DNA of 64,000 bases from Paramagnetospirillum magnetotacticum MS-1 (GTDB lineage Bacteria; Pseudomonadota; Alphaproteobacteria; Rhodospirillales; Magnetospirillaceae), in assembly GCF_000829825.1 (NCBI RefSeq), contig NZ_JXSL01000030.1, forward strand, positions 1,247,501-1,311,500, given 5' to 3'. This document shows, in pieces, positions 42,402-52,968 of this stretch (position 1 is the stretch's first letter; every line of letters begins with the position of its first letter). The position numbers and the translations under genes are program-made. The notes under the pieces were generated by a model that did no database searches, had not been told where the DNA came from, and saw only the letters and a list, made by a program, of their open reading frames with translations.

Positions 42402-42887
42402 CTATTCGTTCCGCGTGAAATCCAGCAGCTTGCCGACATCAAGCACCACCAGCAGCTTATCATCCAAACGGTAGATGCCGATGGAAAAGTCGCGCCAATG
42501 GGGATCCAGTGTCGGCGGATTGCGCTCGAACTTGGCCGCGGGCAGCGACAGGACCTCGCCCACCTGATCGACCATCAGGGAGTATAGCTCGCCCGACTGG
42601 TCCACCACCACGCTCATGCCCTTCTTGTCCTCGGCCCGCTTCTTCAGGCCGAGGCGGAGCCGCACGTCGATGGCGGTGACGATGCGGCCGCGCAGATTCA
42701 AGGACCCCGCCACTTCGCGGGGCGCCAGGGGAATGCGGGTGATCTTCTGCGGACCCAGGACGTCCTGAACGGTCAGCACGGGGATTCCGAACAACTGGCC
42801 TTCGATGAACATGGTCACGAAGTCCTGGGTCTCGGGAGCGGCAAGCTCCGTTCCAGGGCGCTTTCCGGCGGGAACTAACTGATTCAT
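42402..42887 (-). CDS. cheW: Chemotaxis coupling protein CheW
   Basis: A 161-residue SH3-like coupling protein linking receptors to CheA. Typical stretches are FVTMFIEGQLFGIPVLTVQDVLG, ITRIPLAPREVAGSLNLRG and VDQVGEVLSLP. It overlaps the cheA stop by 4 bp, and about 80 bp separate it from cheY. Confidence 0.93.
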   Translation of the reverse strand: MNQLVPAGKRPGTELAAPETQDFVTMFIEGQLFGIPVLTVQDVLGPQKITRIPLAPREVAGSLNLRGRIVTAIDVRLRLGLKKRAEDKKGMSVVVDQSGELYSLMVDQVGEVLSLPAAKFERNPPTLDPHWRDFSIGIYRLDDKLLVVLDVGKLLDFTRNE

Positions 42888-45565
42888 GCGGCACCTTTGG
42901 AGGCTGCGATGGTGGAAGCCAGGGTCTGCAACAACGCATCGCGGTCGAATTTGGCGATGTAGTCGTTGAAGCCGACCTGACGGCCGCGCTCGAAGTCCTT
43001 TTCCGTGGCGTGCGACGACAGGGCCACCATCGGGATGGTGCCCCAGCGGCCGTCGGCGCGAACCGCGGTGGCGAAGTCAAAGCCGCTCATGCCCGGCATC
43101 TCGATATCGCTGATGATGGCGTCGAATTCGTCGCCACGCTCGCGCAGTTGCAGGGCCTTGTCGGCGCCGTCCACCGAGATGACCTCGTAGCCAGCCACCG
43201 ACAGCAACGGCGTCAGCAGGTTGCGGAAGAACGGCGAGTCGTCCACCAGCAGGACGCGCGGCGGATGGAAGTCGGCATTGCCGTATTCCTTGTCGTTGCG
43301 TCCGAACCAGTCGCCGAAGGCCTGCGGCAGGTAGTAGCCAGCATCGATGATGGTGGTGGCCTTGCCCGCGATGACGGCGGTTCCGATGACGCCGGGATTG
43401 TCGGCCGAGAGTTCCACCTTCAGGCGGTCCTCGACGATATCGACGATCTCGTCGACCACCAGGCCCATGGTGTGATCCTTGTCCGAGAACACCAGCACCG
43501 GCTGACGGCCCTCGTCGCGGAAGTTCATGATGCCGTCGATGGCGATCAGCGGCATCAGATGGCCACGGTACTGGACCATGGGCTTGCCATGGCTGTGTTC
43601 GATCTCGCCGACCTCGATCTCCTCGAGGCGCGCCACCAGGGCCAGCGGCACCGCCTTGAGATCGTCGCCACCGGCGCGGAACACCAGCAGCGAGGTCTTG
43701 AGATCGGCATGGCTCTCGCGCACCGTCTGGGCCTCGGCGTCGCGGGTGCCCGCGCCCATCATGCCCGATTCGCCGGTCGCGCCAGCGATGCCGTTGGGGT
43801 CGAGGATCATGATCACCGAACCGTCGCCCAGGATGGTGTTGCCCGAGAACATGGAGATGTGACGCAGGATCGGCGCCACGGGCTTGACCACGATTTCCTC
43901 GGTGTCGAACACCCGATCGACGATGATGCCGAAGGTGTAGGTGCCCACCTGGGTGACGACGATGAAGGTTTCCTGCTGCTCCTCCTCGCTCTCGGCCAGC
44001 TTGAGCAGACGCTTGAGCGAGACCAGGGGCAGAAGGCGATCACGCAGGCGCAGCACCGGCGCGTTGTTGATCATCTCGATGCCGTGTTCGGAATTATTGG
44101 TGACGCGCACCAGTTCCAGAACGCTGATCTGCGGAATGGCGAAGCGCTCGACGGCGCATTCGACGATCAGGGCCGAGACGATGGCCAGCGTCAGCGGGAT
44201 CTTGATGATGAAGGAGGAGCCCTTGCCGGGCTGGCTCTTCAACTCGACCGTGCCGCCGATCTTTTCGATATTGGTGCGCACCACGTCCATGCCGACGCCA
44301 CGGCCCGACACGCTGGTGACCTTCTCGGCGGTGGAGAAGCCCGCCTTGAAGATGAACTGGTAAATCTGCTGCGGCGTCAGCGCATCCAGTTCAGATTCGG
44401 TGGCGATGCCGTTCTGGATGGCCTTCTGCTTGATGCGGTCCAGATTGAGGCCGCGTCCATCGTCGGAGATTTCGATGATGATGTGGCCGCCCTCGTGGAA
44501 GGCGTTCAGCACGATCTTGCCCACTTCGGGCTTGCCGACCTTCTTGCGTTCCTCGGTGCCTTCCAGACCATGATCGGCCGAGTTGCGCACCATGTGGGTC
44601 AGCGGGTCCTTGATCAACTCCAGAACCTGGCGGTCCAGTTCGGTCTCGGCGCCGAGCATCTGGAGGTCGATCTTCTTGTTCATTTCGACCGCGAGGTCAC
44701 GGACGATACGCGGCAGCTTGGCCCAGGCATTGCCGATGGGCTGCATGCGGGTCTTCATCACACCTTCCTGAAGGTCGGTGGTGATGTGGCTCAAGCGCTG
44801 CAGCGGCGTGGCGAATTCGCTGTCATCCTTGCCGCGCACCATCTGGAGGAGCTGGTTGCGGGTCAGCACCAGTTCCGACACCAGGGTCATCAGGTTTTCC
44901 AGAAGCTCCACATTGACGCGGATGGTCTGGGCGGCGACGGCGGATTCCTTGGCCTCGCCAGCGGGAACCGGCGGCGCGGTGGGAGCCGACGGCTGGGCCG
45001 TGGTGGCGGGGACGCTGGCCTTGACCGGCTCGTGCTCCGGCTCGTGCTCGTGTTCCGGTTCGGGCTCGGGGGCCGGGGCGGGCGCGGCGGCGGCGGGTTC
45101 CGGCGCGGCGGGGGTTCCGGCGAAGACCGGTTCGAATTCCGGCATGGGCGGCGAGGGCGGCGGCGGAGCGGACGGCGCGCCGACGGCGCGTCCTTCGGCC
45201 ATGGCGTTGAGGCGCTCGATCAGATCTTCGTCGCTGCCCTCGGGCTCACACTCGTTTTGCTCGAGATGGCCCAGGATCAGCTTGATGCGGTCGATGGACT
45301 GCAGGATCAGAGTCACGGCATCGGGGGTGACTTCCAGTTCCCCATCGCGGAACTTGCCCAGCACGTTCTCGCCCGCATGGGCCACATGTTCCAGGCGCGG
45401 CAATCCGAGGAAGCCGCAGGTGCCCTTGATGGTGTGGACCAGACGAAAGATATTGCCCAGAATCTGTGGGTCGTTGGGGTTTTGCTCCAGATTCACCAGG
45501 GCAATGTCAAGAACGGAAAGACTTTCCGATGTCTCAGTCAGAAATTCACTGAGGAGATCATCCAT
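42884..45565 (-). CDS. cheA: Chemotaxis histidine kinase CheA with two CheW-like domains and a C-terminal receiver
   Basis: An 893-residue kinase. Domain order: Hpt with phospho-His44 (LVHTIKGTCGFLG); an Ala/Pro/Glu-rich linker (about 135-215) in place of an obvious P2; dimerisation helices; HATPase (MVRNSADHGLEG, ISDDGRGLN, GRGVGMDVV); a first CheW-like domain; a second CheW-like domain (about 640-765); and a receiver with LLVDDSPFFRN and IISDIEMPGMSG. Start ATG 45565 follows GGAG; an ATG four codons earlier is the alternative. It heads the operon. Confidence 0.93.
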   Translation of the reverse strand: MDDLLSEFLTETSESLSVLDIALVNLEQNPNDPQILGNIFRLVHTIKGTCGFLGLPRLEHVAHAGENVLGKFRDGELEVTPDAVTLILQSIDRIKLILGHLEQNECEPEGSDEDLIERLNAMAEGRAVGAPSAPPPPSPPMPEFEPVFAGTPAAPEPAAAAPAPAPEPEPEHEHEPEHEPVKASVPATTAQPSAPTAPPVPAGEAKESAVAAQTIRVNVELLENLMTLVSELVLTRNQLLQMVRGKDDSEFATPLQRLSHITTDLQEGVMKTRMQPIGNAWAKLPRIVRDLAVEMNKKIDLQMLGAETELDRQVLELIKDPLTHMVRNSADHGLEGTEERKKVGKPEVGKIVLNAFHEGGHIIIEISDDGRGLNLDRIKQKAIQNGIATESELDALTPQQIYQFIFKAGFSTAEKVTSVSGRGVGMDVVRTNIEKIGGTVELKSQPGKGSSFIIKIPLTLAIVSALIVECAVERFAIPQISVLELVRVTNNSEHGIEMINNAPVLRLRDRLLPLVSLKRLLKLAESEEEQQETFIVVTQVGTYTFGIIVDRVFDTEEIVVKPVAPILRHISMFSGNTILGDGSVIMILDPNGIAGATGESGMMGAGTRDAEAQTVRESHADLKTSLLVFRAGGDDLKAVPLALVARLEEIEVGEIEHSHGKPMVQYRGHLMPLIAIDGIMNFRDEGRQPVLVFSDKDHTMGLVVDEIVDIVEDRLKVELSADNPGVIGTAVIAGKATTIIDAGYYLPQAFGDWFGRNDKEYGNADFHPPRVLLVDDSPFFRNLLTPLLSVAGYEVISVDGADKALQLRERGDEFDAIISDIEMPGMSGFDFATAVRADGRWGTIPMVALSSHATEKDFERGRQVGFNDYIAKFDRDALLQTLASTIAASKGAA

Positions 45566-45734
45566 GATCGACTCCATACGGTCCTGTTTCAGTACGCGCA
45601 GGCGGCACCAAAACTACCTCTCCCCCCATCCGAACCGGACAGGCCATGCCGACTAATAGCACGGCGAGGATGTCTTTAGAAGAACCCAGAACAGGGTAAA
45701 TCCGCTTGCGAAACGATTTTTCCCACATTGCCTG

Positions 45735-46352
45735 TCAGGCCATGATCGAAATCTCCATCGGCCCGTGATCGAGCCTGATTTTCAAGCCCTTGCCTCGGGC
45801 GAGGTGCAGGGCGAACCAGGCCTGGGCGCCGCGTGGCCCGGAAGGCGGGGCGTCGTCGAGCAACACAAGGCGGGCCTCGGCGGTCAGCCCCAGGCCCTCT
45901 CCGGAGGCAATGACCCGCAAACCGGCGTCGCCGCCCCCTTGGGACGATTCGCAGCGGGCCGAGATCCGGCCGCCGCGCGGCAGGGCGTCGCGGGCGATCA
46001 GAACCGGATTGAGCAGCAGCCTTGCCGTCTCTCCGTCCATTTCCGGACGATCGCTGGACCAGTCCAGGGTGATGCCGCCGGTCACCGCTCCATTGAGATA
46101 GGCACGGATCAGGTCGCCCAGGGATTTCGGCGTGTGCGGCATGTCATTGGCCGGTCCCAGGGCGGCCCGCAGGAATTTCAGCCGTGCCGTGGCCGCCGCC
46201 ATGCTGGCCGAGACCAGGGCGAGGGTTTCCGGGTCGTCGCCGTCTTCCAGCAATTCCATGCCGGCCGAAGCGGCGCCCAGGGGGCTGGCAAGATCGTGGC
46301 ACAGACGGGCGCAGAGAAGCTCTGAGAGCTTTGTATCGAGGGTCGGGCTCAT
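45735..46352 (-). CDS. chpT: ChpT-like histidine phosphotransferase
   Basis: A ~205-residue protein with the ChpT pattern LSELLCARLCHDLASPLGAASAGMELL, where the His in CHDL is the phosphotransfer residue, followed by a degenerate ATPase-like domain. In Caulobacter ChpT passes phosphate from CckA to CtrA and CpdR. The start is uncertain: ATG 46352 gives MSPTLDTKL, while a GTG at 46376 extends it by eight residues; neither has a strong ribosome-binding site. It is 170 bp upstream of cheA on the same strand. Confidence 0.82.
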   Translation of the reverse strand: MSPTLDTKLSELLCARLCHDLASPLGAASAGMELLEDGDDPETLALVSASMAAATARLKFLRAALGPANDMPHTPKSLGDLIRAYLNGAVTGGITLDWSSDRPEMDGETARLLLNPVLIARDALPRGGRISARCESSQGGGDAGLRVIASGEGLGLTAEARLVLLDDAPPSGPRGAQAWFALHLARGKGLKIRLDHGPMEISIMA

Positions 46353-46414
46353 GGGTGAGAGTATCCGGGATTTCACCTATGGTACATAATCATACTATCG
46401 GCATATTTAATATG

Positions 46415-47743
46415 TCACAAGCGAAGGATTGTGACGGCCTCGAGATGGGTGGACCACGGGAACTGATCAATGGGAACGATATGTTCGATGTGCCAGCCGC
46501 CATCACAAAGGGTGCGAAGATCGCGGGCCAGGGTCGCCGGGTTGCATGACACCATGGCGATGGTGGCCGGTCCTGCGGGATTGGGGCGGGCCAGTTCGGC
46601 GGCCTGGGCGGCGGCTCCGGCGCGGGGTGGGTCGAGGATGACGGCGCGGTAGGCCTTCAATTCGTGGACGGCCAGGGGACGGCGGGCCAGGTCGCGCACT
46701 TCGGTGGAAAGCGCCAGGCCTTCGCGCCGGGCGGCGGCATCCAGGGCCGCCACGGGTCCTTGTTCTCCCTCGACCGCGTGGACCGGGCCGCGTAGTGCCA
46801 GGGGCAGGCTGAAGCTGCCGCAGCCACAATAGAGATCGGCCACCGGCACCCCTTCGGGTATGGCCGAGACGATGGCCTCGGCGATGGCCAGTTCACCCCC
46901 CTTGGTCGGCTGAAGGAAGGCGCCGGGGGCGGGTTCCACCGCGATGCCGCCGAAATGCACCAGGGCTGCCCGGCGCCGGGCGATGGGCTCGATGAAACCG
47001 CCTGCCGCGCCGATGCCGGGGCGGCGCCAGTGCAGACGGGCCAGATCCAGGCCTTCGGCGGCGGCCGCCAGGCTCTCCCGTTCGAACAGATCCAGGCGGG
47101 CGGGGGATTCCACCAGCACGTCCAGCCCATTCTCGGTCAGGGTCATGATCAGATCGCCGCCGCCTTCGACGGCGATCCCGGCCAGCATCTTGCGCAGACC
47201 GGGAAGGGCCGCCCCCAGGGCAGGATCCAGAAGCGGGCAGCGTTCGATATCGATGATGGTGTGGCTGGACCGTCCATTGAAGCCCAGGACGATGGCGCCC
47301 TTGGCCCGTGTGAAGGCAAAGGCTGCCCGGCGGCGCGAAGCGGGGGGCACCCGCACCAGCGGCTCGACTACCGCGTCGGCCAGCCCGTGCCGCGCCAGTT
47401 GGGTGATCAGCAGATCGCGCTTCCACGCGGCATAGAGGTCATCCTCCATGTGCTGAAGCGAGCAGCCGCCACACCGGCCGTAATGGGCGCAGGGCGGCAT
47501 GGCGCGGCCCGGTCCCGGCTCCAGAACCTCGATCAGCGCGGCGGTCAATCCGTCGCCGCGTCGGGCTTCGATGCGGGCCAGGACCCGGTCCCCGGCGACG
47601 GTGAAGGGGACGAATACCGCTTCGCCGTCCAGGCGGGCGATTCCGTCGCCGCGAGTTCCCACCGAGTCCACCACCAGTTCCACGGTGCGGGGCTGAACGG
47701 TGTTGCGGTTGGTGCGCGGCGGGGCCCTGCGGGGCTTTCTCAT
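46415..47743 (-). CDS. TrmA/RumA-type RNA (uracil-C5)-methyltransferase
   Basis: A 442-residue SAM-dependent enzyme. An N-terminal TRAM-like domain is followed by the 4Fe-4S cysteine cluster CAHYGRCGGC. The methyltransferase domain has VADLYCGCGSFSLPLA and the nucleophile motif VSCNPATLARDL. The family modifies U in 23S rRNA (RlmC/RlmD) or tRNA; which site cannot be told here. It overlaps the upstream lipoprotein gene by 4 bp, so it may be the last gene of the Mla operon. Confidence 0.88.
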   Translation of the reverse strand: MRKPRRAPPRTNRNTVQPRTVELVVDSVGTRGDGIARLDGEAVFVPFTVAGDRVLARIEARRGDGLTAALIEVLEPGPGRAMPPCAHYGRCGGCSLQHMEDDLYAAWKRDLLITQLARHGLADAVVEPLVRVPPASRRRAAFAFTRAKGAIVLGFNGRSSHTIIDIERCPLLDPALGAALPGLRKMLAGIAVEGGGDLIMTLTENGLDVLVESPARLDLFERESLAAAAEGLDLARLHWRRPGIGAAGGFIEPIARRRAALVHFGGIAVEPAPGAFLQPTKGGELAIAEAIVSAIPEGVPVADLYCGCGSFSLPLALRGPVHAVEGEQGPVAALDAAARREGLALSTEVRDLARRPLAVHELKAYRAVILDPPRAGAAAQAAELARPNPAGPATIAMVSCNPATLARDLRTLCDGGWHIEHIVPIDQFPWSTHLEAVTILRL

Positions 47744-48360
47744 CGGAGCGGAATGGAGGCCGAGGCCCGGGCCAGATCGGCCAGGAAACGGGCGAAGATC
47801 TCGTTTACTGCCTTCTCCATGGCGCGGGCGGCGTCCTCCACCCGGTCCGAGGCGGCGGGAATGCGCACGGCGTAGGTCTCCAGCAGGACCAACCGTCCGT
47901 CACGGGCGCCGACCACCGCCAGTTCCAGGTCGGCAACCACTTCGGAGCGGTCGGCGATCTGCTCGAAGCGCCGCACCTTGCCGCGCAGCACCCAGTCGGA
48001 CAGAACGCGGAGTTCGGGCGTCACCACCCGCCCGGCCAGACCGGATTCGGACAGGTAATGTTCCAGGCGGTCCTGCAGCAGAATGCCGGGCGGTTCGCTC
48101 CAGAAGTCGTATTTGTAATGGGCCAGGGCTCCGCCTTCGGTTCTGGCGAAAGCCACGGCCCGCTCGGCCGCCACGCCGTCCGAGGTCAGCCGGTTGACCT
48201 CCAGCACTCCGGGCAGGACCGGCTTGGGCAAGCGCTGGGCGGGCGCTGCCACCTCGATGCGGTAGAAGGCGTCGGGCGGCGCCGCCGGTCCGGTGCAGGC
48301 GGTCAGCACGAATAGTAGGAGGGCTGCCGTAACCGTGTTGCGCATGACCATGGCTCTCAT
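47740..48360 (-). CDS. ABC-type transport auxiliary lipoprotein (Mla-associated)
   Basis: A 206-residue lipoprotein (LTAC lipobox) of the ABC_trans_aux/PqiC-like family, with FYRIEVAAPAQRLPKPVLPGVLEVNRL and the FWSEPPGILLQDRLEHYL segment. Such proteins sit at the outer membrane and partner MCE-type lipid transporters. It follows mlaD with a 4-bp overlap, placing it in the transporter operon. Confidence 0.85.
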   Translation of the reverse strand: MRAMVMRNTVTAALLLFVLTACTGPAAPPDAFYRIEVAAPAQRLPKPVLPGVLEVNRLTSDGVAAERAVAFARTEGGALAHYKYDFWSEPPGILLQDRLEHYLSESGLAGRVVTPELRVLSDWVLRGKVRRFEQIADRSEVVADLELAVVGARDGRLVLLETYAVRIPAASDRVEDAARAMEKAVNEIFARFLADLARASASIPLR

Positions 48361-49319
48361 TTCCGTCCCGGGCCGTCCTCGCCCCGTTTGTTGCCGCCGA
48401 TCAGCACGCCGGGATTGTCGCGGATCTGGCGCGAGAATTCGTGCAGGTTCCGGGTCGTGCCGTCCAGATTGTAGGTGACCGAATCGATGGAGCGCGACAC
48501 CGCCTGAAGGGTATGGCGCAGATCCTTGATGCTTTGATCGATATTGTCCTGGTTGCCGGTGATGCTTTTGTCCAGCGAGGTCAGCATGGCATCGACCTTC
48601 TTGCGGCTGTCTTGCAGCCCCGCCGACAACTGGGCGGCGTTGTTCAAGGTCTCCTTGATGCGCTCGGCATTGGCGTCGGTGACCACCTTGCCCGACAAGG
48701 TGCCGGTCATCTTTTCCACATCGGCGGTGATTCTGGGCGTCTTGGCGGCCAGATCCTGGGTGACCGCCAGCAGATTGGCCATCAGTTCGGGGGCGTGCTT
48801 TTCCATGATGACGCCCAGGCTGCCCACCTGCTGGGTCAGGCTGAACAGCAGCGGCTTCAAGGCCGTCTGGTTAAGGTCGGTGATCTGGCCCGCCATGTCG
48901 TTCATGGCGGCGAAGATATTGGCGGCGGGGCCCGAGGGGATATCCGCGCCGGGCGCCAGCATCTCGGGCGAGGTGCCGCCCTTGATGTCCAACGTCACCG
49001 CCGCCAGCAGGCCCGAAGCGGCGACGCGGGCCAGGGAATCCTTGGGGATGCGCCAGTCGCTGGCCACCGAGACCTCCAGGCGGAAGGCGGTGGTATTGCC
49101 TTCGTGCACCGGCGATATCTTCTCCACTTGCCCCACCGGGAAGCCCTCGAAGGTGACCTTTGTGCCGTATTTGATGCCGGCCACATTGGCCAGCCGGGTG
49201 TAGTAGTTTTCCGTGGCGCCGGTCCGTCCCGTCAGCACCACCACCACCACCACCAGCGAGACCAGCATGGCCAGCACGAAGCCGCCCACCATGGCGTAAT
49301 TGATGCGGGAATCCTTCAT
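48357..49319 (-). CDS. mlaD: MlaD-type MCE protein
   Basis: A 320-residue protein with one N-terminal membrane helix (about 10-30) and an MCE domain (about 38-115) whose core reads GIKYGTKVTFEGFPVGQV. The rest is a long helical region (about 150-300), longer than E. coli MlaD, that could form a tunnel or bridge. It should hold lipid in the periplasm and bind the MlaE-MlaF complex. It overlaps mlaF by 4 bp. Confidence 0.9.
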   Translation of the reverse strand: MKDSRINYAMVGGFVLAMLVSLVVVVVVLTGRTGATENYYTRLANVAGIKYGTKVTFEGFPVGQVEKISPVHEGNTTAFRLEVSVASDWRIPKDSLARVAASGLLAAVTLDIKGGTSPEMLAPGADIPSGPAANIFAAMNDMAGQITDLNQTALKPLLFSLTQQVGSLGVIMEKHAPELMANLLAVTQDLAAKTPRITADVEKMTGTLSGKVVTDANAERIKETLNNAAQLSAGLQDSRKKVDAMLTSLDKSITGNQDNIDQSIKDLRHTLQAVSRSIDSVTYNLDGTTRNLHEFSRQIRDNPGVLIGGNKRGEDGPGRK

Positions 49320-50158
49320 GAGCTGCGGGTCCGGGTTTGGGTGGGAGCGGGGCCGCCGGTCAGCCGCCGCAGATAGGATTCTGCGTCGGGCTCGGCTTCT
49401 TCGGTGCGGCGGTTCAGCAGGTTCTGGATGCGTGGATCGGTGCTGGCGCGGATGGCGTCCACGGTGTCCAGCGCCAGGACATGGCCCCGGTCCAGAACGC
49501 AGATGCGGTCGGCGATCTTGAAGGTGGAATCGAGATCATGGGTCACCACCACGATGCTCATGCCCATGGCGTCGCGCAAGCGCAGGATCAGGTCGTCGAT
49601 GGAGGACGCCACCACCGGGTCCAGCCCCGCCGAGGGCTCGTCGCAGAACAGTAGATCGGGGTCCATGACGATGGCGCGCGCCAGGGCGGCGCGCTTGATC
49701 ATGCCGCCCGACAATTCGGCGGGCTTCAGGTTTTCAAACCCGGCCAGGCTGACCACTTCCAGCTTGAGCCGCGTCACGATGCCGATGGTGGTTTCGTCCA
49801 GTTCGGTATGTTCGCGCAGCGGCAGGGCGATGTTATCGCCCACGGTCATGGAACTGAACAGGGCACCCGACTGGAACGCCACGCCGGTGCGGGTGCGCAG
49901 ACGCTGAAGCGCGATGGGCGACAGCTTGGCGATGTCGTGACCCAAAATGCGCACCGTGCCCGAACTGGGCTTCTTCAGGCCCAGGAGGTGGCTGAGCAAG
50001 GTGGTCTTGCCCGAGCCCGAGCCGCCCATGATCACCATGATCTCGCCCTTGCCCACGGTGAGCGACACATTGTGCAGGATCTGGCGGCTGCCGTAATGGG
50101 TGACGAGGTTGCTGACCTCGATGCTGTTACCCTTGGCGCTATCGGGGGGGGCGGCCAT
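49316..50158 (-). CDS. mlaF: MlaF-type ABC transporter ATPase
   Basis: A 280-residue ATPase with Walker A GGSGSGKT (45-52), signature LSGGMIKRAALARAI and Walker B LLFCDEPSAGLDP, the combination typical of MlaF. It powers lipid movement through MlaE. The start shares one base with the mlaE stop (TGATG). Confidence 0.92.
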   Translation of the reverse strand: MAAPPDSAKGNSIEVSNLVTHYGSRQILHNVSLTVGKGEIMVIMGGSGSGKTTLLSHLLGLKKPSSGTVRILGHDIAKLSPIALQRLRTRTGVAFQSGALFSSMTVGDNIALPLREHTELDETTIGIVTRLKLEVVSLAGFENLKPAELSGGMIKRAALARAIVMDPDLLFCDEPSAGLDPVVASSIDDLILRLRDAMGMSIVVVTHDLDSTFKIADRICVLDRGHVLALDTVDAIRASTDPRIQNLLNRRTEEAEPDAESYLRRLTGGPAPTQTRTRSS

Positions 50159-51000
50159 CAGCGGGTCACCATGAAGACGAAGATCATGTCGGTGACCACG
50201 ATGGCCGAGATGGCGTGCACCACCGACCGGGTGGTCAGGCGGCCGACCCCTTCGGCGCCCCCGGTGACCGAGGCGCCGTTGACCACGCCCACCAGGGTGA
50301 TCAGCACGGAGAAGATGGCGCTTTTGCCCAGGCCGTGCCAGACGTCATTGAGGCGCACCAGATCGGTCATCTCGTCCACATAGGCGCCCATGGAGCTGCC
50401 CAGTTGCGGCGCGATGTAAAGACCGGCGGCGAACAATCCCACCAGATCGGACCACAGGGTCAGGGCGGGCAGCATCACCATCATGGCCAGCAGGGGCGGC
50501 ACCACCAGGAAGCGCACCGGCGAGACGCCCATGACGGTCAGGGCGTCGATCTCCTGGTTGATGCGCATGGTGCCCAGCCGCGCCGCCAGCGCCGAGCCCG
50601 ACCGGCCCGCCACCAGAATACCGGTGATCAGCGGCCCGAATTCGCGCACCACGCTCATGGCGACGCCCAGCGAGACGCGGGATTCCGCGCCGAACAGGCG
50701 CAGCGTATAGATGCCCTGGATGGCCAGCATGATGCCGATGGTGGCCGACAAAACGGTGACGATGGGCAGGGCGCCGATGCCGATTTCCATGGCCTGGGCC
50801 ACCACGGGGGCGAGGCGCACCGGCTGGCGGCGCTTTTTTCCCATGCCCAGCCAGTAGAGGCTTTCACCCAGCAGCGTGGCGCCGAAGCCGAACTCGGCGA
50901 TTGCCGCCGCCGCCCGGCGTCCCAGCCGGTCGAGAAAGCCGATAAATCCCTGAGGTTCGGCCTCGGCGCTCACCGCATCATCCCTCAAGGGCCGAATCAA
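50158..51000 (-). CDS. mlaE: MlaE-type ABC transporter permease
   Basis: A 280-residue inner-membrane permease with about five to six hydrophobic segments and the family pattern REFGPLITGILVAGRSGSALAARLGTM followed by EIDALTVMGVSP. It is the lipid-moving core of the Mla complex. The start overlaps the upstream STAS gene by 23 bp, a stronger coupling than usual. Confidence 0.92.
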   Translation of the reverse strand: MIRPLRDDAVSAEAEPQGFIGFLDRLGRRAAAAIAEFGFGATLLGESLYWLGMGKKRRQPVRLAPVVAQAMEIGIGALPIVTVLSATIGIMLAIQGIYTLRLFGAESRVSLGVAMSVVREFGPLITGILVAGRSGSALAARLGTMRINQEIDALTVMGVSPVRFLVVPPLLAMMVMLPALTLWSDLVGLFAAGLYIAPQLGSSMGAYVDEMTDLVRLNDVWHGLGKSAIFSVLITLVGVVNGASVTGGAEGVGRLTTRSVVHAISAIVVTDMIFVFMVTR

Positions 51001-51304
51001 GGGTGTCGGCGATGGTGAAGACCCGGTCCAGGCGGGACAGTTGCAGCACCCGGCGCACCGGATCGCTGATGGCGGCCAGAACGAAGCGGGTATCGTTCTT
51101 GCGGGCCATCTGATAGGCCTCGACCAGGCCCGCGATGCCCGAACTGTCGATATATTCCACCCGCGAGAGGTCCACGGCGACAGGGCGCTTTTCCAGCATC
51201 AGATCCATCAGCGCCTTGCGCAGAGTGGGTGAGTGGCGCAGGTCCACCTCACCCGACAGGGTCATGATGGTGGAGGCGCCAGCGGCGCGCGTTTCAATCT
51301 TCAT
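50978..51304 (-). CDS. STAS-domain protein (anti-sigma factor antagonist/MlaB-like)
   Basis: A 108-residue STAS domain. The switch-loop is YIDSSGIAGL with Ser54/Ser55, as in SpoIIAA/RsbV proteins that are phosphorylated by an anti-sigma kinase. MlaB, which also is a STAS protein, binds MlaF and controls transport. Here it lies between a SpoIIE-type phosphatase gene (4-bp overlap) and mlaE (23-bp overlap), so both readings are possible. Confidence 0.85.
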   Translation of the reverse strand: MKIETRAAGASTIMTLSGEVDLRHSPTLRKALMDLMLEKRPVAVDLSRVEYIDSSGIAGLVEAYQMARKNDTRFVLAAISDPVRRVLQLSRLDRVFTIADTLDSALEG

Positions 51305-52968
51305 GTGGGTTCGATCCGTTTCACCATTTGCAGCAGATTGCCGATTCCGGCCGGTGGCGGCAGAAATTCGACGCTATCCATGATCGAGCGCATCAGATGG
51401 GTCCCCAATCCCCCGGGCCGCACCTCGTCCAGCGGCCTCGGCTGGATTTTAGCCACATCCACGGCGGGAGCGAAATCCATAAGTCGTATGACGAGACGAT
51501 CATTCTCGCGATCAAGCTGAAGGACGATGTCGCCGTCCCCTCCCTGATAGGCATGACGGATGATGTTCTGACAGGCTTCGTCCACCGCCAGGACCACATC
51601 GCCGATGACGGCTTGGGGGCAGCCAAGAAGCCGCGCGTTTTCGCCCACGGCGCCGCGGATGGCCGCCAGTTCCTCGGGCCGGGCGGCATAACGGCGCTCG
51701 AAACCGGGCGGGGCGTTCCGCCGGTCCTCGATCACCATCACGGTGACGTCGTCGCGCAGGCCGCCGCTTTCTTCCAGGGACTGGACCAGGGCCCGCAGGC
51801 GTTCACCCGCAGGCAGGCCGGTGAAGCTTTGGATCAGGGCGCGGGCGCCCGCATCCTCCAGCATGGCGTCTTGGCGGGTACGGGCCTCGGTCAGACCGTC
51901 GGTGAAGAGATAGAGGGAGCCGCCGCCCAGGGCGATCTCGGTCTCCGGGCAGCCATCGGCGAACAGTTCGACGGCGATGCCCAGCGGCGGCATCTCGCCC
52001 TCGATGGGGATGAAGATGCCGTCCTTGAGCAAAAGCGGCGGCTCGTGACCGGCGATGGCCAGCACCACCTTTCCCGTATCGGGGTGAAACAGCCCGGCGA
52101 CCATGGTGACGAACATGCCGGGCATGCGGGTTTCCAGAAGTTCGGAATTGATGGCGGCCAAGACGTGTCCCGGCCCGGCTTCGCGCTTGACCAGACAGCG
52201 GAACAGGCTGGCGGTCTTGGACATCAGGAGCGAGGCCTTCATGCCCTTGCCCGACACGTCGCCGATGGCGAAAGCCAACCGGCCATCGGCCAGGGGCATG
52301 ATCTCGAAGAAATCCCCCGATACCCCCTGGGCGGGCAGGTTGATGCCGTGAATGGGCGATTCGTCGGGCTGGCGTCCGGGCAGCATGGCCCGCTGAATCT
52401 CGGACGCCAGTTCCAGTTCGCGCTTCAAGCCCTGCTGCACCGCCATGTCGGCCACCAGGCGGGCATTGATCAGGGCCAGGGCGGAACTGGCGGCCAGGGC
52501 CTGAAGCAGCCGGGAATCCGTCTGGGAAAAGGCGTTGCCGTCCTTCTTGTTGAACAGCTCGATGGCACCCAGCCTTGTGCCGCGCACCGTCATGGGGGCG
52601 CACAGGATGGACCGGGTCTCGAAGCCGGTGGCGGCGTCGATGGCGCGGGCGAAGTCCGGGTCCCTGCGGGTGTCCTTGACCAGTTGTGGCGCGCCAAGAT
52701 CGATGGTGCGCCCGACGATGCCGGTGCCAGGCGGCAGGCGCAAACCGGTGACGTCCACCGGCCCCATATTGGCCCGGCACACCAGTTCGCCGGTCTCCTC
52801 ATCGACGAGGAAGAGAGAGGCGGCCTGGGCTCCCACCCGCTGGGCGATGCGGTCCAGACCGAGGCGCAGAGCGGCCTCGATATCCAGGGAATGGGCGAAA
52901 TCGCCGGTCATCTCGACGATCAGGTCGAGATGGTGGGCGGATTCGGCGTCTGTGGATGAATTGGGCAT
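51301..52968 (-). CDS. GAF-SpoIIE phosphatase-HATPase regulator
   Basis: A 555-residue soluble protein with three domains: GAF (about 24-165); a PP2C-type SpoIIE/RsbU phosphatase (about 205-413) with metal aspartates in GDFFE (Asp219), GDVSGKG (Asp237), TDGLTE (Asp357) and RDD (406-407); and a GHKL ATPase (about 430-550) with DEACQNIIRHAY (463-474) and GGLGTHLM, as in RsbW/SpoIIAB. It therefore carries both the likely phosphatase and kinase of a partner switch. It starts the operon that continues into STAS and mlaE. Confidence 0.88.
   Translation of the reverse strand: MPNSSTDAESAHHLDLIVEMTGDFAHSLDIEAALRLGLDRIAQRVGAQAASLFLVDEETGELVCRANMGPVDVTGLRLPPGTGIVGRTIDLGAPQLVKDTRRDPDFARAIDAATGFETRSILCAPMTVRGTRLGAIELFNKKDGNAFSQTDSRLLQALAASSALALINARLVADMAVQQGLKRELELASEIQRAMLPGRQPDESPIHGINLPAQGVSGDFFEIMPLADGRLAFAIGDVSGKGMKASLLMSKTASLFRCLVKREAGPGHVLAAINSELLETRMPGMFVTMVAGLFHPDTGKVVLAIAGHEPPLLLKDGIFIPIEGEMPPLGIAVELFADGCPETEIALGGGSLYLFTDGLTEARTRQDAMLEDAGARALIQSFTGLPAGERLRALVQSLEESGGLRDDVTVMVIEDRRNAPPGFERRYAARPEELAAIRGAVGENARLLGCPQAVIGDVVLAVDEACQNIIRHAYQGGDGDIVLQLDRENDRLVIRLMDFAPAVDVAKIQPRPLDEVRPGGLGTHLMRSIMDSVEFLPPPAGIGNLLQMVKRIEPT

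Follow-up and report, generated by a model that had tools for sequence, protein, structure and literature searches.

A conserved operon joining a candidate partner switch to an Mpc-like transporter in Paramagnetospirillum magnetotacticum MS-1

The six-gene run and its conservation

This work deals with a run of six genes in a stretch of 64,000 nt from Paramagnetospirillum magnetotacticum MS-1 (the window, to whose positions all coordinates refer). The genes lie on the minus strand between positions 47740 and 52968 and overlap their neighbours by 1 to 23 bases (Table 1). They encode a protein with GAF, PP2C (SpoIIE) and HATPase domains, a STAS protein, an MlaE-type permease, an MlaF-type ATPase, an MlaD-type MCE protein and a lipoprotein of the ABC_trans_aux family. 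Domains were assigned with Pfam and NCBIfam (TIGR) models and judged against the cut-offs of these models; all named domains of the run score above the Pfam cut-offs, while the NCBIfam search gave no match for the lipoprotein. An initial annotation had recognized six overlapping genes of just these kinds and described them as a partner-switching module fused to a complete Mla operon. All six reading frames are present, and the word fused holds for the overlapping genes, not for their domains. The same annotation had pointed out that no sigma factor gene is near, and none of the ten Sigma70_r2 matches in the genome falls inside the window. The operon is a real and conserved link between a partner switch and a transporter resembling the Mla-Pqi chimera Mpc; it is undescribed within the PubMed Central (PMC) open-access literature searched, in which no account of such a link was found among titles and abstract starts.

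Gene order was compared in several samples of genomes. Because the set of named genomes retains the best 80 of 362 loci, it is biased towards similarity. At 76 of these 80 loci a STAS gene is followed by mlaE in the same orientation. Of the remaining four, L219 and L223 belong to M. fulvum and L240 and L252 stop at contig ends. The complete order STAS, MlaE, MlaF, MlaD, lipoprotein is visible in 63 loci. The set takes in the alphaproteobacterium Magnetovibrio blakemorei and the gammaproteobacterial symbiont of Solemya velum (L283). Within the family of the window, 47 of 55 genomes, which are related by kinship and do not represent 55 independent cases, contain the PP2C protein (counted at E<=1e-60), and in 42 STAS and MlaE directly follow. 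This adjacency was read in the loci for 38 genomes, one is the window itself, and in three (G024, G031, G032) the STAS gene was placed by hit coordinates and not by its sequence; MlaE matches of the family outside the fetched loci were typed by score alone. In a class-wide sample of 385 genomes, with up to three PP2C candidates scored per genome and the count therefore a lower bound, the PP2C protein occurs in at least 16, and the operon's type of MlaE is adjacent in 12 of the 16, window included. Two of the other four have STAS without this MlaE (G396, G165), and the matches in G208 and G061 are so incomplete or so close to contig ends that they could not be placed. MlaE of this type (>=55% identity) was found in 13 of the 385 genomes, the thirteenth of which (G365) stops at a contig edge. 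A search of 398 genomes sampled across the phylum yielded the PP2C protein in four, one of them outside the class and equipped with the full set (G568). The initial annotation had made its proposal depend on conservation of the switch beside the mla genes, and the arrangement is indeed widely kept in relatives.

Several variants of this order exist. The phosphatase match ends before the HATPase domain in eleven genomes of the family; ten of them have a separate HATPase frame beside it, and in G001 the HATPase lies on a contig other than that of the phosphatase. The order HATPase-STAS-transporter occurs with the phosphatase absent in G033, and STAS-PP2C-HATPase is convergent with the transporter in G265, whose MlaE falls inside the operon-type clade on a long branch (trees were built by a quick method, with support from the Shimodaira-Hasegawa-like approximate likelihood ratio test (SH-aLRT) only and with midpoint roots). 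Two tandem STAS genes are present in G112 and G406. At the loci L146 and L147 such tandem genes sit between HATPase and MlaE; the HATPase-side copy has diverged (A58E and Q65R among others), the MlaE-side copy keeps the usual pattern, and the copies may divide the kinase and transporter roles. In two genomes belonging to the same genus (G011 and G012; L109:4225-4980 and L110), HATPase and STAS are naturally fused in an uninterrupted open frame. G018 (L099) has STAS, MlaE and MlaD with no MlaF between MlaE and MlaD, and in G030 (L104) STAS and MlaE are followed by genes that in our reading of the sequence resemble hydrogenase maturation genes.

Table 1. Features of the operon and its surroundings (window positions)
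Feature	Position	Strand	Basis or remark
GAF-SpoIIE/PP2C-HATPase_c_2 protein	51301..52968	-	GAF 28-166, SpoIIE/PP2C 228-414, RsbW-type HATPase 428-550
STAS protein, RsbV/SpoIIAA type, candidate MlaB-like subunit	50978..51304	-	Pfam STAS, 77.8 bits
Ser54-Ser55 codons of the STAS switch loop	51140..51145	-	alignment
MlaE-type permease	50158..51000	-	TTG start as listed; Pfam MlaE, 231 bits
MlaF-type ABC ATPase	49316..50158	-	Pfam ABC_tran
MlaF C-terminal extension, residues 243-268	49355..49432	-	RIQNLLNRR...DAESYLRRLTG
MlaD-type MCE protein, 320 aa	48357..49319	-	Pfam MlaD at 37-114, over cut-off
ABC_trans_aux (PqiC/MpcA-like) lipoprotein	47740..48360	-	Pfam PF03886, 43.4 bits
Uracil-5-methyltransferase (RlmD-like)	46415..47743	-	4-base overlap with the lipoprotein gene
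HPTransfase (ChpT-like) and CheA-like hybrid kinase	42884-46376	-	CheW and receiver domains
Small lipoprotein-like frame, 136 aa	53349-53759		no Pfam or NCBIfam match

The RlmD-like methyltransferase gene is a common downstream neighbour of the operon across the family. It is followed in the window by genes for a ChpT-like protein and a CheA-like hybrid kinase, and in most of the loci fetched from the genus a ChpT-like gene adjoins RlmD. The small lipoprotein-like frame upstream of the switch was matched in just five close relatives when 60 loci of the family were scanned.

The switch proteins and the type of transporter

The sequence hallmarks of a partner switch of the RsbV/RsbW/RsbU type, namely a DSSG loop, intact N and G2 boxes and the PP2C aspartates, are all found, as the initial annotation had claimed. 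The loop of the STAS protein reads Y51-I-D-S54-S55-G, with Ser55 aligned with the second serine of the SpoIIAA DSSG motif, and both serines are identical in all 97 non-redundant rows in which STAS is paired with the transporter (out of 120 paired loci, window included). When the window protein is aligned with 11 full-length relatives, residues E464, N468, D498 and GGLGT of the HATPase domain are invariant, as are D219, D237, D357, D406 and D407 of the PP2C domain, which we take to be the metal ligands. The nearest solved kinase by sequence is RsbW of Bacillus subtilis (6m36, E 6.5e-10), with which the HATPase aligns across the N box and the GGLG box; PP2C relatives are likewise found among solved structures. 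The GAF-PP2C-HATPase protein is a candidate for the sensor, the phosphatase and the kinase that would act on the STAS protein. The genome holds ten scattered STAS_2 matches, nine of them over the cut-off and the window's included, and at least two STAS genes (C25:225171, C25:246466) adjoin other HATPase_c_2 genes.

The STAS protein scores 82.4 bits with the anti-sigma antagonist model TIGR00377 as against 32 bits with mlaB_1 (cut-off 90), and among solved structures it is closest in sequence to TM1442 and other antagonists, MlaB being a weaker match. An AlphaFold2 model built from 40 sequences (mean predicted local distance difference test score 95.4) contains a fifth strand (97-99) and a C-terminal helix (102-107). 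In the fold comparison RsbV and other antagonists match it best, MlaB appearing from rank 28 down. MlaB is described as a minimal STAS protein without the fifth strand and the extra last helix (PMC7367683; this and the other papers are cited from those parts that were available).

MlaE and MlaF agree with those of canonical Mla, and MlaF-type chains of MlaFEDB complexes are among the best solved relatives. MlaD combines one MCE domain with a long C-terminal part, in which Mce4_CUP1 (178-290) remains just under the cut-off (31.6 of 32.6 bits); the protein reaches 59.4 of 135 bits with TIGR04430, and the C-terminal part is presumably of the needle type. Neither mlaA nor mlaC is part of the six-gene run. 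In the genome, which was searched for MlaC and not for MlaA, five MlaC matches are scattered, none of them in the window. Since mlaA and mlaC are missing from the run and MlaD is of the long type, the initial designation as a complete Mla operon cannot be upheld. The composition is that of Mpc, with MlaE and MlaF, a long MCE protein and a PqiC-like lipoprotein in one operon. We equate the ABC_trans_aux family with PqiC, which is in part an assumption of ours. It is consistent with the description of the Mpc lipoprotein (PMC12436622). The permease-fused STAS domain of Mpc has no counterpart in the window: its MlaE shows no Pfam STAS match and no N-terminal STAS domain, STAS being a separate gene. 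A second MlaE-MlaF pair exists in the genome (L128), adjoining genes that by their sequence resemble alr and radA; no STAS match was obtained within the 16 kb read around it.

Association of the STAS protein with the transporter and with MlaF

The 55 genomes of the family show an asymmetry. Transporter and STAS occur together in 44 (three by coordinates), the transporter without STAS in none, STAS without the transporter in four (G035, G036, G041, G016) and neither in seven. The 44 consist of the 42 genomes with adjacent genes, of G033 and of G001, in which a rearrangement has put HATPase and STAS about 8 kb away from MlaE and both have nevertheless been kept. In six of the seven genomes with neither, a search for STAS gave no match at E<=1e-8; for G053 absence is based on the PP2C search and on the type of MlaE. 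Two apparent cases of a transporter without STAS were rejected, G001 because its contig also carries STAS and HATPase and G015 because its MlaE falls into the clade of the other MlaE of the P. magnetotacticum genome. Such an asymmetry is the pattern expected if the transporter needs the STAS protein while the latter has further work to do.

MlaF provides a second line of evidence. In E. coli, Tyr261, Leu265 and Leu266 of a C-terminal extension of MlaF lie between MlaB and MlaF (PMC7367683), and we confirmed these residues in the sequence. MlaF proteins of the operon type end in the conserved motif NLLNRR.EE..DPDAYLRRLLG. By regular expression, the extension was detected in 88 of 95 non-identical MlaF proteins with STAS beside them and in three of 24 without, a comparison in which MlaF type and motif are confounded by ancestry. 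The seven misses comprise four close variants, one contig end, one parsing failure with the motif visible and one protein truly lacking it (L140). We propose that the extension of the operon-type MlaF is an analogue of the one that contacts MlaB in E. coli.

In the MlaE tree the operon-type proteins form a clade with support 98 that includes L168 and excludes L280. Members of the adjoining clade carry N-terminal extensions; of the three in which Pfam STAS was tested, L170 scores over the cut-off, L091 under it (17.1 of 29.2 bits) and L121 has no match. L280 belongs to a 90.5-kb contig of a metagenome-assembled genome (MAG) of the Ectothiorhodospiraceae, a gammaproteobacterial family, in which the switch and STAS stand directly upstream of a canonical-type mlaE, a short mlaD, mlaA and a gene of the MlaC family; no second STAS match occurs in the 17.7-kb stretch. 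Its MlaE falls into the E. coli clade (support 95) on a long branch and attains 266 of 315 bits, under the cut-off of the model for E. coli-type MlaE, and the short MlaD exceeds the curated equivalog cut-off (160.7 vs 135 bits). Convergent with this canonical-type set and behind it lies a gene for an MlaF that groups inside the operon-type MlaF clade (support 95) and shares 61-68% identity with its 12 best matches among operon-type MlaF proteins as against 42% with that of E. coli. With MlaF of the operon type and MlaE and MlaD of the canonical type, STAS and MlaF stay together at this locus while permease and MCE protein differ.

Possible gating of the transporter, alternatives and known systems

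The initial annotation had suggested that phospholipid transport is turned on and off by reversible phosphorylation of an MlaB-like subunit, with a GAF domain as the sensor. We regard it as rather probable that the STAS protein takes the place of MlaB on MlaF, with phosphorylation as the gate. Unphosphorylated STAS would bind MlaF in the position of MlaB, aided by the C-terminal extension, and would keep the ATPase in an assembled and active state. The HATPase domain would bind the same STAS protein and phosphorylate Ser55, the phosphorylated form would leave MlaF and transport of the substrate, presumably a lipid, would stop until the PP2C domain, under control of a signal perceived by the GAF domain, removed the phosphate and turned transport on again. 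We favour this reading because the family's type of MlaE is never found without STAS (0/44) and because of the MlaF extension and the L280 hybrid; the neighbouring MlaE clade with some fused STAS domains lends further indirect support. The earlier proposal is supported in part. In E. coli, the exchange T52E in MlaB lowers MlaF binding, and MlaF is missing from the complex purified without MlaB (PMC7367683).

A number of observations weigh against this reading. The transporter is Mpc-like in its composition (MlaEFD plus a PqiC-like lipoprotein) and not a complete Mla system, which speaks against a simple version of it, and the STAS protein is predicted to be of the full RsbV/SpoIIAA type and not MlaB-like in topology. 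Furthermore, four lineages have the switch and lack this transporter, namely the clade of G035, G036 and G041, G016, G396 and G165 (81% complete). In the first of these, the only one measured, the ratio of non-synonymous to synonymous substitutions (dN/dS) is 0.08-0.17 in 14 of 15 gene-pair comparisons, RlmD included, and 0.31 for one GAF comparison, and it is not above that in four transporter-bearing pairs (0.12-0.43). The switch is under purifying selection without the transporter and must therefore have another target there, so that the transporter is not its sole output everywhere; the switch probably has more than one output. In the PP2C tree (115 rows) the three transporter-less genomes of the M. 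fulvum type group together, the remaining 13 rows of the genus are their sister group and transporter-bearing genomes lie outside, a placement that points to a derived loss. A relaxation of STAS residues in the absence of the transporter was not borne out: among seven comparison loci, L090, L092, L094 and L142 keep all 32 positions that are >=90% conserved in STAS proteins linked to the transporter, L139 differs at one, L105 at three and L168 at 12. As the residues are kept in relatives without the transporter, the clade of G035, G036 and G041 included, conservation of STAS cannot be credited to MlaF.

Further points belong on the same side. In G178, STAS stands beside an MlaF without the YLxRL motif. 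L280 is a single MAG contig with its MlaE on a long branch, and misassembly is possible; its G+C content is 53-60% in the first 10 kb and 50-56% in the remainder, with no sharp step. Mutual information with average-product correction (85 of 97 rows, effective number 52) for the pairs STAS-MlaF and STAS-HATPase was not above that of control pairs, and MlaE-MlaF did not stand out either; we draw on this result neither for nor against the reading. In E. coli an mlaB knockout is rescued by overexpressed MlaF, and MlaB T52A stays bound and is yet inactive (PMC7367683), which means that a simple binding switch is not assured. Finally, co-transcription alone could explain the linkage.

One alternative is that the partner switch serves another target, be it a sigma factor, an anti-sigma factor or an enzyme encoded elsewhere, and shares the operon for co-expression only. 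It would account for the lineages with the switch and without the transporter, including the selection measured in one clade, and for the RsbV/SpoIIAA type of the STAS protein; the ten Sigma70_r2 matches of the genome all lie outside the window, and HsbR and CrsR, which are related and likewise bifunctional, work on sigma factors (PMC6482189). Against this account, the transporter never occurs without STAS in the family, even after rearrangement; the MlaF extension and the joint occurrence of STAS and MlaF in L280 despite a different permease and MCE protein argue in the same direction, and we deem the explanation unlikely, if the most serious of those considered. A view in which the STAS protein is a constitutive MlaB-like subunit that kinase and phosphatase merely free or sequester for a second pathway, transport itself being ungated, fits the constant presence of STAS with the transporter, and not vice versa. 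Kinases of the RsbW family, however, bind their STAS partners over the switch loop. MlaB contacts MlaF through a helical surface in the middle of which the loop residue lies (PMC7367683), and since both contacts share the loop, binding should be mutually exclusive. Even taking into account that the site does not have to act as a binding switch, as the bound and inactive T52A variant of E. coli implies (PMC7367683), an ungated subunit strikes us as improbable. That the gene order merely reflects shared inheritance in one bacterial group, with no functional coupling, would agree with the predominance of Rhodospirillales-type loci among the 80 and with the rarity of the PP2C protein across the phylum (4/398), but the order persists where protein identity is about 45%, as well as beyond the class (L283, G568), and the switch is combined with a different permease in L280, so that we consider this highly improbable.

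If the favoured reading, in which phosphorylation gates an STAS protein in the MlaB slot, is extended to L280, STAS and MlaF would constitute a portable pair that makes assembly of an ABC transporter, in place of transcription, the output of a partner switch, that controls the flow of lipids between membranes in many alpha- and some gammaproteobacteria, that can move into a canonical-type Mla system and replace MlaB there, and that is joined by a second target in some lineages. We consider this wider proposal about as likely as not.

How levels of active MlaB are regulated has been called an open question, and phosphoregulation of MlaB is already in print as a hypothesis: a phosphomimetic exchange weakens MlaF binding, while phosphorylation of MlaB was not shown (PMC7367683). 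What the present operon would add is a candidate kinase and a candidate phosphatase for an MlaB-like STAS protein. As it places these together with a sensor domain and STAS beside a transporter, the MlaB hypothesis becomes directly testable in a natural system. If the reading is true, partner switching is not confined to gene regulation but also serves the acute control of lipid transport between membranes. The cluster may then represent a built-in on/off control of lipid movement between the two bacterial membranes, which bears on the regulation of such transporters.

Among known partner switches, RbaV-RbaW-RbaY of Rhodobacter capsulatus likewise consists of an alphaproteobacterial STAS protein, a HATPase and a PP2C phosphatase for which no cognate sigma factor was found; unlike the proteins of the window, these are encoded by separate genes, the phosphatase is of the receiver type, and a transporter is not mentioned in the available parts of the report (PMC3999984). 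HsbR-HsbA and CrsR-CrsA also combine PP2C and kinase/anti-sigma domains in one protein with one STAS target, but HsbR and CrsR are response regulators without GAF, and the outputs named in the accessible text are sigma factors, FlgM and a diguanylate cyclase, with no transporter among them (PMC6482189). On the transporter side, E. coli MlaFEDB shares the MlaF/MlaE core, a STAS partner (in the window a candidate) and an MlaF extension with Tyr and Leu, whereas its MlaD is short, MlaC is encoded in the operon and MlaA is part of the system (PMC7367683, PMC7790496); MlaB, a minimal STAS protein without the fifth strand, has a D-T-G-G loop and, as far as that source goes, no reported phosphorylation (PMC7367683). 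Among published systems Mpc, known from Brucella and other Hyphomicrobiales, comes closest; it is composed of MpcE, MpcF, the 331-aa MpcD and the PqiC-like MpcA (PMC12436622, EMBO J 2025). Both systems comprise MlaE and MlaF homologues, a long MCE protein (331 aa in Mpc, 320 aa in the window) and a PqiC-like lipoprotein, with no MlaA or MlaC in the operon. In Mpc, STAS is fused to the N-terminus of MpcE and called homologous to MlaB, and the available text mentions no modifying enzymes (PMC12436622), whereas the STAS protein of the window is free, of the RsbV type and accompanied by a candidate kinase and a candidate phosphatase.

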